This document shows positions 18,736 through 21,828 of a DNA stretch of 64,000 bases, in pieces. Under the pieces are notes generated by a model. The model did no database searches. It saw only the letters and a program-made list of their open reading frames with translations, and was not told the DNA's origin. Numbering within the stretch: position 1 is the stretch's first letter; every line of letters begins with the position of its first letter. Both the position numbers and the translations under genes were made by a program. Source of the stretch: Woeseia oceani (GTDB lineage: Bacteria; Pseudomonadota; Gammaproteobacteria; Steroidobacterales; Woeseiaceae); NCBI RefSeq assembly GCF_001677435.1, contig NZ_CP016268.1:2841001-2905000 (forward strand). The letters are read 5' to 3'.

Positions 18736-19824
18736 GTGGTCCGCGTAGGCATAATCGGGGCCGGACAGCTTGGTCTCATGCTCGGCATGGCGGGCCGCGA
18801 GCTCGGCGTGGAATGCGTCTTTCTCGATCCGGCGGAGAACCCGCCAGCCGCGAGTGTCGGCAAAGTCATTCGCGCTCAGTTTGACGATGCCAAAGGCCTG
18901 GCGGAACTCGCTGCAGCAACGTCGGTCATTACCTACGAGTTCGAAAACGTATCTGTTGCAGCCTTGTCCGAATTGAACGAGAAAACCGCGGTTTACCCGC
19001 CCGTGGCGGCACTCGGTGAAGCGCAGGACCGACTGAACGAAAAACAGCTGTTCGCCGAACTCGACATTCCGCTGCCACAATACCGCACGGTCGACAGCGA
19101 ACAGGATTTGCGCCATGCCATCCGCGACATCGGCCTGCCGCTGGTGCTGAAGACCCGTCGTCTGGGCTACGACGGCAAGGGCCAGTACCTGCTGAAGTCC
19201 GTCGATGACGTTGAAGACGCGTTGCGCACTCTGCCGAACAAACCATTGATCGCCGAACAATGGGTCGACTTTGATCGCGAAGTATCCGCCATCGGCGTGC
19301 GCGATCTGGACGGCAACGTCGCGGTTTACCCGCTGACAGAAAACCAGCATCGCAATGGCATTCTGCGCAACTCCAGGGCGCCGGCAGGACCTGCCGCCAT
19401 GCAGGAGTTGGGCAACCGGCACCTGCAAAAGCTGATGACCCATCTGGATTACGTTGGCGTTATGGCGTTGGAGTTTTTTGTGGTCAACAACGAATTGCTG
19501 GCCAACGAATTTGCGCCACGGGTACACAACTCCGGACACTGGACCATTGAAGGCGCAGCCACCAGCCAGTTCGAAAATCACATCCGTGCTATTTCGGGAA
19601 TGCCGCTCGGCGCTACCGATGCCGTGTCTCATGTGGGCATGGTAAACCTGATAGGTGCCATGCCGAACAGCCCGGACACGCTGACCGAGGCCGGCATGCA
19701 TGTCCATGACTACGGCAAGGAGCCGCGCAGCGGCCGTAAACTCGGTCATATCACACTGAGTGACGACGATCCGGAACAGCGTGATCAGCGACTGCAGAAG
19801 CTGGAAGCGATGCTGGCAGGATAG
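18736..19824 (+). CDS. purK: N5-CAIR synthetase PurK (ATP-grasp)
   Basis: A 362-residue ATP-grasp enzyme forming N5-CAIR from AIR, bicarbonate and ATP. It begins RVGIIGAGQLGLMLGMAG, has VLKTRRLGYDGKGQY in the ATP-binding loop, EQWVDFDREVSAIGVRD and EFAPRVHNSGHWTIEG with the catalytic region. GTG start directly after the purE stop, so translational coupling is likely. A short direct repeat follows the gene before the next ORF. Confidence 0.95.
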   Translation: MVRVGIIGAGQLGLMLGMAGRELGVECVFLDPAENPPAASVGKVIRAQFDDAKGLAELAAATSVITYEFENVSVAALSELNEKTAVYPPVAALGEAQDRLNEKQLFAELDIPLPQYRTVDSEQDLRHAIRDIGLPLVLKTRRLGYDGKGQYLLKSVDDVEDALRTLPNKPLIAEQWVDFDREVSAIGVRDLDGNVAVYPLTENQHRNGILRNSRAPAGPAAMQELGNRHLQKLMTHLDYVGVMALEFFVVNNELLANEFAPRVHNSGHWTIEGAATSQFENHIRAISGMPLGATDAVSHVGMVNLIGAMPNSPDTLTEAGMHVHDYGKEPRSGRKLGHITLSDDDPEQRDQRLQKLEAMLAG

Positions 19825-19842
19825 ATGCCGAACGCAGGCCGC

Positions 19843-19880
19843 GAACTGGCTCACGGCGCTGGTCGGGAACTGGCTCACGG
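19843..19880 (+). repeat. Short tandem repeat downstream of purK
   Basis: GAACTGGCTCACGG occurs at 19843-19856 and again at 19867-19880 (24-bp period), with a partial third copy (GGAACTGGTCTC) near 19921. It may be replication slippage; no function is suggested. Confidence 0.6.
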
Positions 19881-19964
19881 AGCCCGCGGTGTCGATGGGC
19901 TACAATCCGGGTACACTCAGGGAACTGGTCTCTAACAACTAATTTGTCGCAAGACGCTTTGCCA

Positions 19965-21263
19965 ATGTCCTATCTGGAACATTTTAAACTTAACGAGCAA
20001 CCGTTTCGGCTAACCCCGGATCCTGAATTCGTCTACTGGAGCAAGCAGCACGCTCGGGCCAAGGCGTACATGGAGTCCACAATCTGGCTGGCGGACGGCT
20101 TTGTGGTCATTACCGGTGAAATCGGCTCGGGCAAAACCACTCTCCTGCAGGCATTTTTAGCTGAACTGGCCGATGACATCGTCTACGCAGTCGTTTCTCA
20201 AACCCAGCTCACGCCAACCCAGTTCCTGCAAGCTGTCCTCGCGGAGTTCGGCTTTGAGCCGTTCAACAAGCGCAAGGTTGAGCTGCTCGACATGCTCAAC
20301 ATGTTTCTGATCGAGCAATACTCGAACGGCAAGAAAGTCGTATTGATTGTTGATGAAGCACAGAACCTGAGCAAGAAGGTTCTTGAAGAAATTCGCATGC
20401 TGTCCGGCATCGAGACACACAAAGAAAAGGTTTTGCGAATTATTCTCGCGGGCCAACCTGAACTGCGTGAAAAACTGGAATCGCCGCGACTCAAGCAGCT
20501 CATTCAGCGGGTCCGCTTGCGCTTCCACATAGGTCCGCTCGACCTCCGGGAAATGCATGAGTACATTGAACACCGGCTGGAAGTGGCTGGCCACGGCAAA
20601 CACGACCTGTTTAGCGAAGACTGCTACGACTGCATACACCGCTACACAGGCGGCGTGCCGCGACTCATCAACACACTGTGCGATACGGCCCTGCTCTGCG
20701 CCTACGCGGAACAGAAAACCTCGCTGACGCAAGCCGACATCATTGCCGCGGCGGAAGAACTTGGCTGGAAAGAGGTCTCCGACGACCACGACCGGTCAGC
20801 CAACCTGCCGCAGCTGACCACGCGCCATTCAGCACCTTTGTGCTCGGTGCAGATTCGTACTGATGGCCACCTTGTGTCCGAATACAATCTGAAATCGGGT
20901 CGCGTAGTAATCGGTCGGGCACCGGACAACGAAATTTATATCAAAAGCAAATTTGTCAGCCGGCATCATGCACAAATCGTTTGTAACGAAGACGGTTGCA
21001 TCGTCGAGGACCTGAATAGCACGAATGGAATATTCATCGGCAACCGACGGGTCAAGAAACACTATCTTCAGGACGGCGACGTTGTCTCACTGGGCATTCA
21101 CGATCTGGTCTTCCGTGATCTGCAGGACGATCAGGATGAGGAACTCGACGACATCGTCGACGAGGAGTTCGATGATGAAATCATTGACGAACTGGAAGAC
21201 GAAGAACTCGACGACGACAGCATGGATGACGAAGAACGAGCTGCCAACGACAGCACTGCCTGA
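19965..21263 (+). CDS. ExeA/GspA-type AAA+ ATPase fused to an FHA domain with acidic tail
   Basis: A 432-residue protein in three parts. Residues 1-270 are an ExeA-like ATPase: YLEHFKLNEQPFRLTPDP at the start, Walker A GEIGSGKTT (51-59), Walker B VVLIVDEAQ (125-133), and TGGVPRLINTLCD (228-240). Residues about 290-385 form a forkhead-associated domain with GRVVIGR (312-318), SRHHA (332-336) and NSTNG (351-355), the phosphothreonine-binding signature. Residues about 388-429 are an Asp/Glu-rich tail. The usual GspA peptidoglycan-binding and transmembrane parts are absent, so it is probably cytoplasmic. ATG 19965 begins the family N-terminus; a TTG lies 21 bp upstream. No gspB, exosortase or kinase gene is near; function unknown. 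Confidence 0.88.
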   Translation: MSYLEHFKLNEQPFRLTPDPEFVYWSKQHARAKAYMESTIWLADGFVVITGEIGSGKTTLLQAFLAELADDIVYAVVSQTQLTPTQFLQAVLAEFGFEPFNKRKVELLDMLNMFLIEQYSNGKKVVLIVDEAQNLSKKVLEEIRMLSGIETHKEKVLRIILAGQPELREKLESPRLKQLIQRVRLRFHIGPLDLREMHEYIEHRLEVAGHGKHDLFSEDCYDCIHRYTGGVPRLINTLCDTALLCAYAEQKTSLTQADIIAAAEELGWKEVSDDHDRSANLPQLTTRHSAPLCSVQIRTDGHLVSEYNLKSGRVVIGRAPDNEIYIKSKFVSRHHAQIVCNEDGCIVEDLNSTNGIFIGNRRVKKHYLQDGDVVSLGIHDLVFRDLQDDQDEELDDIVDEEFDDEIIDELEDEELDDDSMDDEERAANDSTA

Positions 21264-21272
21264 CAGTCAGGT

Positions 21273-21554
21273 TTAGATTTCGTGATCGTTCTTGGCGCGC
21301 CGATCATGTTCGCGACTGTCCCGCCGCTTCAACAACACAACCAAGCCCGCAACCAGGCAAAACAAGCCGACAGAGAAGCAGATCGTCGGCCAGTACCAGT
21401 GATGCAGGTACATTGATGCTGCCAGTGATATCGCTCCTACCAACAGGTAGAAGTAAGGCAGACTTTCATAGATTGGTTTCGACACCCACATACCAGGACC
21501 CGCTTGAATAGTTATACGGGATTGTGGCTTGCGCAGCTGGCGTAGTCCAGCCAC
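21273..21554 (-). CDS. Small two-helix membrane protein, uncharacterised
   Basis: Up to 93 residues with two hydrophobic helices (YFYLLVGAISLAASMYL and PTICFSVGLFCLVAGLVVLL) and a basic, then charged C-terminus (KRRDSREHDRRAKNDHE). Start may be the GTG at 21554 or the ATG at 21491, which would give 72 residues; neither has a clear ribosome-binding site. It is not recognised. It converges on the FHA-ATPase gene with a 9-bp gap. Confidence 0.55.
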   Translation of the reverse strand: MAGLRQLRKPQSRITIQAGPGMWVSKPIYESLPYFYLLVGAISLAASMYLHHWYWPTICFSVGLFCLVAGLVVLLKRRDSREHDRRAKNDHEI

Positions 21555-21663
21555 GGCGGTGGAATACGCGACCGCGGCCAGGGCCGCAGGACCCCGGCCG
21601 CGATCAGATCTTAACCATTTGTTTTTTGGGTATTTTTGCTGCGAATCGGCAGCGGCGACAGGC

Positions 21664-21828
21664 TTATTTGCCGCGGAACATGAAGAATCCGAAGACGCGC
21701 GACATCAGAGAATCTGACAACCCGTCGACGGACAGGTCACTTTCAATCTCCATCGCGTCACTCCGCAGGCTTTGCACGAAAGACTTCGCGGTTGCATCAA
21801 GATCGTGTTCGGTAATAGTGCTGTCCAA
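21664..21828 (-). CDS. Putative 54-residue protein with TTG start
   Basis: A short frame beginning TTG at 21828 and ending TAA, preceded by GAGGA with 7-nt spacing. The translation (M/L)DSTITEHDLDATAKSF... continues through VQSLRSDAMEIESDL and ends SRVFGFFMFRGK. It looks protein-like: an acidic amphipathic N-terminal half and a short hydrophobic C-terminal SRVFGFFMF patch. It lies between tldD and the small membrane protein gene, on the same strand as both. It is not recognised. Confidence 0.45.
   Translation of the reverse strand: MDSTITEHDLDATAKSFVQSLRSDAMEIESDLSVDGLSDSLMSRVFGFFMFRGK

Follow-up and report, generated by a model that had tools for sequence, protein, structure and literature searches.

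A conserved fusion of an ExeA-type AAA+ ATPase with an FHA domain and an acidic tail in Woeseia oceani and its relatives

Introduction

ExeA-type ATPases are regarded as membrane-anchored assembly factors, and in GspA proteins the ATPase is followed by a transmembrane helix and then by a periplasmic peptidoglycan-binding part. For the ATPases associated with XrtA we know of no established role. Among FHA proteins, GarA is a kinase substrate and acts through a phosphorylation-linked switch. Assembly of the secretin at the peptidoglycan requires ExeA together with ExeB (PMC4098917).

Here we describe a gene of Woeseia oceani that combines features of these systems. The Woeseiaceae are widespread marine-sediment bacteria, and the DNA analysed (the window) is a stretch of 64,000 nucleotides, positions 2,841,001-2,905,000 of a genome whose 4,059,891 bases form one contig. 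An original prediction, made from the letters and open reading frames of the window, had read one gene as an ExeA-type ATPase joined to an FHA domain and a strongly acidic C-terminus.

Results

Architecture of the window protein

We found that this reading of a single polypeptide was confirmed by Pfam, by the signature residues and by the charge of the tail (Table 1). The Pfam model AAA_22 spans residues 44-171 (98.8 bits; cut-off 27) and the FHA model residues 314-377 (72.7 bits; cut-off 20.7). An alternative TTG start seven codons upstream of the ATG is also possible; the listed homologues start at the ATG position, not at the TTG. No sigma-70-like site was found in positions 19700-21700, a result that is uninformative as promoter evidence.

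Table 1. Positions in the window of the AAA-FHA gene, its parts and its upstream neighbour
Feature	Position	Strand	Remarks
purK	18736..19824	+	directly upstream, 140 bases; gene name by reading of the protein
AAA-FHA fusion gene	19965..21263	+	open reading frame and translation; 432 aa plus stop; ATG start
ExeA-type AAA+ domain	19965..20774	+	residues 1-270; Pfam AAA_22; TnsC/MuB/ORC fold in the model
Walker A GEIGSGKT	20115..20138	+	residues 51-58; G51, G54, G56 and K57 invariant (36/36)
Walker B VVLIVDEAQ	20337..20363	+	residues 125-133; E131 and Q133 invariant, D130 at least 90%
Linker	20775..20840	+	residues 271-292; pLDDT about 50 for 271-290; unconserved, weakly predicted
FHA domain	20841..21122	+	residues 293-386; signature GR 317-318, S332-H335, N354-G355; Pfam
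Acidic tail	21123..21260	+	residues 387-432; net charge -26; mostly disordered; helix 387-398 predicted at its start

Invariance was counted in an alignment of 36 diverse fusions, the window protein included. Six residues of the FHA domain (G317, R318, S332, H335, N354 and G355), which we take to be the phosphothreonine-contact signature, are invariant in all 36, and the FHA core is not degenerate, a possibility that the original prediction had wished to see checked. From this signature the FHA domain is predicted to bind phosphothreonine. The window protein is presumably an active ATPase. Solved sequence relatives of the FHA part are the FHA domains of EmbR, Rv1747, TB39.8 and GarA, with OdhI also among them; two equivalog models were missed by the protein, FhaB (60.5 of 125 bits) and OdhI (39.3 of 200 bits).

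The absence of a GspA-type transmembrane and peptidoglycan-binding end was likewise upheld. After residue 240 the best 19-residue hydropathy value is 0.5, against 2.1 in the GspA of the same genome, so that hydropathy detects no transmembrane stretch in the protein, and the C-terminus consists of the FHA domain and the acidic tail. The window protein is best read as cytosolic. Acidity of the tail is kept among relatives, with a median of 43% D/E in 38 family tails, and its sequence is not.

An AlphaFold model, computed from an input alignment of 23 proteins of which 8 have the FHA domain, has a mean pLDDT of 84.6. Confidence is high for the AAA part and for most strands of the FHA domain; values below 50 are confined to linker residues 275-287, tail residues 400-432 and a short FHA loop (330-332) that contains the signature residue S332. 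When the model was compared with solved structures, the nearest AAA structure was TnsC (Z 21.3, rmsd 3.0 over 247 residues), next came MuB (Z 20.9, rmsd 2.6 over 229 residues) and then Cdc6/ORC, and the top Foldseek matches of the AAA part were ORC2 and MuB. On this modelled fold the AAA domain would bind ATP and may form a ring or filament.

Conservation of the fusion

An orthologue is present in 84 of 101 sampled Woeseiaceae genomes, mostly at 63-74% identity and in a few cases cut by contig ends; of the 17 genomes that lack it, 12 are no larger than 2.0 Mb. At the level of the order, an active-type fusion was counted in 42 of 59 genomes, plus one truncated fusion, and the FHA domain was seen in the fusions of G109, G107 and G120. 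The class sample yielded at least 17 genomes with the fusion out of 274, one of which (G329, L082) contributes a divergent row of unsure place. Among the matches listed for a phylum sample of 299 genomes, only the window's own covers the FHA part. Compared with the window protein, family rows have a median identity of 81% in the AAA domain, 60% in the FHA domain, 9% in the linker and 11% in the tail, these identities and the family domain charges resting on nine rows. Conservation at 81% and 60% in the two domains means that their fusion is not due to chance, and the architecture is a conserved family rather than an isolated fusion.

Two outside origins were considered and rejected. Eighteen viral loci match the protein at 23-37% identity and none extends past query residue 283; 129 plasmid records match, none reaching 80% query coverage. 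One relative in the sampled genomes is much longer: a protein of 1067 aa (G106, L154, 4310-7510, minus strand) has about 650 coiled-coil-looking residues between its AAA and FHA parts.

Relation to GspA and XrtA-associated ATPases

The best NCBIfam model for the window protein is TIGR03015, at 308.9 bits and below the cut-off of 324.5 bits. This near miss is not diagnostic because the GspA-like protein of the same genome also scores 285 on the model; four other ATPases pass it with 354-419 bits. As the window protein stays below the cut-off of every NCBIfam model, our check for an already named family leaves an architecture that is conserved but unnamed. No open-access article on an ExeA/GspA-FHA or AAA+-FHA architecture, exopolysaccharide and Hanks-type contexts included, was found by title, and Haft 2006 (PMC1569441) contains no occurrence of ATPase, GspA, ExeA or tyrosine.

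A quick tree of 71 AAA domains, built without bootstrap, placed the window protein in a group of 34 rows (30 with FHA and four FHA-less; SH-aLRT 100). The group is split from all 14 GspA rows, a label given to proteins longer than 500 aa, and from all 17 canonical TIGR03015 rows, four of which were scanned with the model and passed. A more careful tree of 88 rows, from which 25 close family rows of 113 were left out, recovered 34 family and order fusions as a clade (96/93; starred). Other order-level fusions lie outside the starred clade, and fused and FHA-less members from the class are mixed; in this tree the fused B proteins (see below) were grouped by score, and two long rows among them, L082 and L178, are doubtful. 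Given this mixing, the FHA domain may have been gained once and then lost, or gained or moved repeatedly.

Three assignments were rejected on these results. Membership of GspA was set aside since the protein, with its ExeA-type AAA+ domain and Walker A and B motifs, has no transmembrane part and falls in a separate tree group. Membership of TIGR03015 was set aside on the score (308.9 of 324.5 bits), on the position outside an exosortase locus and on the tree, in which canonical members lie across the starred branch. Our first idea, in which the fusion was a canonical XrtA ATPase that had been displaced, was dropped after the 71-domain tree.

Gene neighbourhoods

Genes from 60 fetched stretches were clustered together with the window's genes; an active-type fusion stands at the centre of 54 stretches, one of which is the window. 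purK is a conserved neighbour of the fusion: in 32 of the 54 neighbourhoods the gene immediately upstream, on the same strand, belongs to the purK cluster, and in the other 22 it does not. The spacing, with gene starts set by pattern, is 10-140 bases in 29 cases, 242 and 289 bases in two and 1,254 bases in one. Many housekeeping genes around the fusion also keep their order, and because these unrelated flanking genes are ordered too, the purK linkage may be frozen order only. On the other side, a small minus-strand open reading frame (21273-21554), membrane-protein-like, faces the fusion gene in convergent orientation, and members of its cluster are present in 11 of 61 clustered stretches.

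Polysaccharide genes adjoin the fusion in some relatives (unless a model is cited, we named the polysaccharide, purine and kinase-operon genes by our own reading). In G162 and G315 the fusion stands at the end of a run of export, chain-length, tyrosine-kinase-like and outer-membrane genes. At the G162 locus the export and chain-length genes pass XrtA/PEP-CTERM models, the kinase-like gene falls below cut-off and the outer-membrane gene has no match; we found no exosortase match in the G162 genome. The fusions of G138, G127 and G148 are also near polysaccharide genes, as judged from the genes read there. In all, 5 of the 54 fusion neighbourhoods were read as polysaccharide loci, and all four FHA-less members of the group (G234, G289, G307 and G241) lie in exopolysaccharide loci; because it was the ATPase that led us to these stretches, the relatives' loci cannot count as randomly sampled.

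According to the original prediction, no exosortase locus is found here. The window gene is indeed outside such a locus, but the genome has an ATPase-less exosortase locus elsewhere, and the XrtA link is not simply absent, as some near relatives sit in exopolysaccharide loci. The one exosortase match of the genome, at 1,529,997, is 1.33 Mb from the fusion in contig coordinates. Its locus (L164, G000:C1:1520001-1540000) has export, chain-length, kinase and outer-membrane genes followed directly by a deacetylase, named by reading and cross-matches, and no ATPase match was found in that stretch.

This pattern extends to the family. An ATPase was present in none of 18 Woeseiaceae exosortase loci (from 17 of 23 genomes, in stretches of at most 20 kb) versus 7 of 10 loci outside the order (Fisher 1e-4, the family loci not being independent). 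As control loci we took every fourth of the listed class-wide exosortase rows (ranks 1-77), giving 20 loci that were not chosen by ATPase, and set aside 10 with fewer than two of the three export, chain-length and kinase markers in the stretch. One locus set aside, L301, has the ATPase, and over all 20 control loci 8 have it; 3 of the 10 comparable controls are also without. Every exosortase genome of the family sample has the fusion (23/23), as do 61 of 78 genomes without exosortase (Fisher 0.011). The fusion may thus serve exosortase loci in trans. The exosortase system cannot be its main client, since 61 of the 84 fusion carriers are without an exosortase match.

Protein kinases of the carriers

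The original prediction noted that no kinase is nearby. This holds for the window, which has no match to Pkinase (PF00069), but means little in a genome with 12 such matches, the nearest about 138 kb from the fusion gene; a search for kinases elsewhere in the genome, as had been suggested, thus found such matches. Woeseiaceae genomes have up to 22 Pkinase matches, with four or more in 88 of 101 and 0-3 in 12 fusion-less genomes of 2.0 Mb or less. All 84 carriers of the fusion have at least four, and 13 of 17 non-carriers have 0-3 (Fisher 3e-13), an association that is confounded because genome size explains much of it. The non-carriers G021, G030, G036 and G043 (drafts of genus g12) are kinase-rich, with 5-8 matches. 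The earlier reading, in which the ATPase would be regulated by phosphothreonine partners or directed to them, agrees with the invariant FHA residues and the kinase-rich carriers.

Elsewhere in the genome (L160 5635-9483; G000:C1:2378635-2382483), a kinase with a membrane-looking N-terminus, a phosphatase-like gene (by reading) and an FHA protein stand in a row. After its first FHA domain this FHA protein has EKTMVI, which resembles the tail motif described next.

A second AAA-FHA fusion

The genome encodes a second fusion, protein B (L009/L159; G000:C1:2030846-2032123, minus strand), 29% identical to the window protein, here protein A. In B the FHA match is intact and the Walker B motif is decayed, with ENVH in place of DEAQ. 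Relatives of B are widespread in Woeseiaceae, with several paralogues in some genomes (three of G026 were fetched, one of them doubtful), and in the window genome's own lineage B lies between a thymidine-kinase-like gene and a run resembling cytochrome c maturation genes (names by reading). B is also present in G030 and G033, both without A.

Of 19 B tails, 16 have a motif ([DEQ]T-hydrophobic-x-hydrophobic/D) 3-11 residues beyond the point where the FHA domain is projected to end, and a narrower pattern gave 8 of 19; both patterns were set after the tails had been viewed, and the doubtful L082 and L178 are among the 19. Shuffling gave a mean of 1.4, with none of 1000 shuffles as high as 16. 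The same motif is found in none of 38 family A tails and, outside the family, in 5 of 41 A tails; the B of the window genome has SDTIIMK after its FHA domain. These features make B a candidate partner of A.

Two further proteins (L152 9442-11043 and L167 2582-4207) are AAA-FHA proteins with a decayed Walker B and an extra C-terminal part, TPR by Pfam in L152. The L152 protein adjoins export, chain-length and kinase genes and a short FHA-less ATPase.

Discussion

The explanation that we consider best is that the window protein is a cytosolic AAA+ ATPase of the ExeA superfamily that is recruited by phosphothreonine and perhaps aids surface-polysaccharide export; we give this reading as a whole a probability of about 0.4. 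Recruitment or switching through the FHA domain is on balance probable, and the polysaccharide task is a tentative assignment with less than even odds. Its AAA domain, of TnsC/MuB-like fold, would bind ATP and build a ring or filament, and the FHA domain, standing where GspA has its membrane anchor and peptidoglycan part, would dock on a threonine-phosphorylated partner. Once a Hanks-type kinase had phosphorylated that partner, the ATPase would be brought to its site or switched, the flexible linker and acidic tail setting reach and electrostatics; we infer both the kinase and the target. The outcome, by analogy with ExeA, may be the assembly or gating of an envelope machine. The task suggested by the loci of some relatives is to assist the assembly or activity of a surface polysaccharide export machine, and in Woeseiaceae, where the gene sits behind purK outside polysaccharide loci, it would act in trans.

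Other accounts change the role given to the FHA domain or to its ligand. Some FHA domains bind partners without phosphate, and it is unlikely, in our view, that this one is a phosphate-independent oligomerisation or docking module on an ATPase that carries out a housekeeping envelope task outside kinase control: the FHA domain is less conserved than the AAA domain (60% against 81% in the nine family rows), as such a module might be, but a phosphate-free dock would not need the six signature residues that all 36 fusions retain. A little less doubtful, though still with the odds well against it, is a two-part phospho-switch in which the phosphorylated threonine motif of B is the ligand of A's FHA domain and the two form a mixed ring or filament. 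The intact FHA domain and decayed Walker B of B, its wide occurrence in Woeseiaceae and the contrast in tail motifs (16/19 in B, 0/38 in family A) argue for such a switch; the post hoc choice of pattern, with 8/19 for the narrower one, the presence of the motif in 5 of 41 A tails from outside the family and the persistence of B without A in G030 and G033 argue against it, and B's own FHA domain is an equally possible reader of the motif. We regard as improbable a kinase-gated AAA machine of active A with at least one decayed B, in which phosphothreonines after B's FHA domain, read by the FHA domains, would set the make-up of a ring or filament for envelope polysaccharide assembly in trans.

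The fold and the neighbourhood each suggest a different task. With DNA-bound TnsC and MuB and ORC/Cdc6 as top structural matches, and with a sequence profile that matches MuB at 4e-9, the protein might act on DNA as a TnsC/MuB/ORC-like ATPase whose added arm reads phosphoproteins, for example in a response to damage or in replication, its tail guarding the nucleic-acid surface. We hold this to be quite improbable, as the AAA domain has a net charge of -8, the order-level neighbourhood is housekeeping, no transposase was seen among the neighbour genes that were read, and ExeA, whose AAA domain is of this kind, has its role at the envelope (PMC4098917). The position of purK, within 10-140 bases in 29 of the 32 neighbourhoods that have it directly upstream, and the presence of GarA and OdhI among the solved FHA relatives would suit a GarA/OdhI-like regulator of purine synthesis whose target is PurE/PurK or an enzyme linked to them. 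That is the least probable of these accounts and in our judgement highly unlikely: the shared order spans unrelated genes on both sides and may be frozen, 22 of 54 neighbourhoods are without purK directly upstream, and the FhaB and OdhI models stay below cut-off.

If phosphothreonine recruitment is the right reading, a conserved branch that has exchanged its membrane anchor for a phosphothreonine reader would be a handle for naming both client and kinase. It would give the large kinase sets of Woeseiaceae a concrete output and offer a possible route for kinase control of surface polysaccharide.

Set beside known systems, the window protein shares the AAA+ domain of GspA/ExeA, at 42% identity to the GspA-like protein at C1:529199 of the same genome, and differs in that the membrane and periplasmic part is replaced by the FHA domain and acidic tail. 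The likeness to the XrtA ATPases (TIGR03015) lies in the best NCBIfam match, below its cut-off, and in setting: XrtA-type polysaccharide loci contain part of the window's group, both FHA-bearing and FHA-less proteins. With TnsC and MuB it has the AAA+ fold in common, at 13-19% identity over the aligned parts of the top rows and with the FHA domain as an addition; a shared fold shows no function. The FHA domain carries the phosphothreonine signature as it does in GarA/OdhI, TB39.8, Rv1747 and EmbR, proteins in which we know of no ExeA-type ATPase. The parts are thus of known kinds, and their combination is a conserved, unnamed variant.
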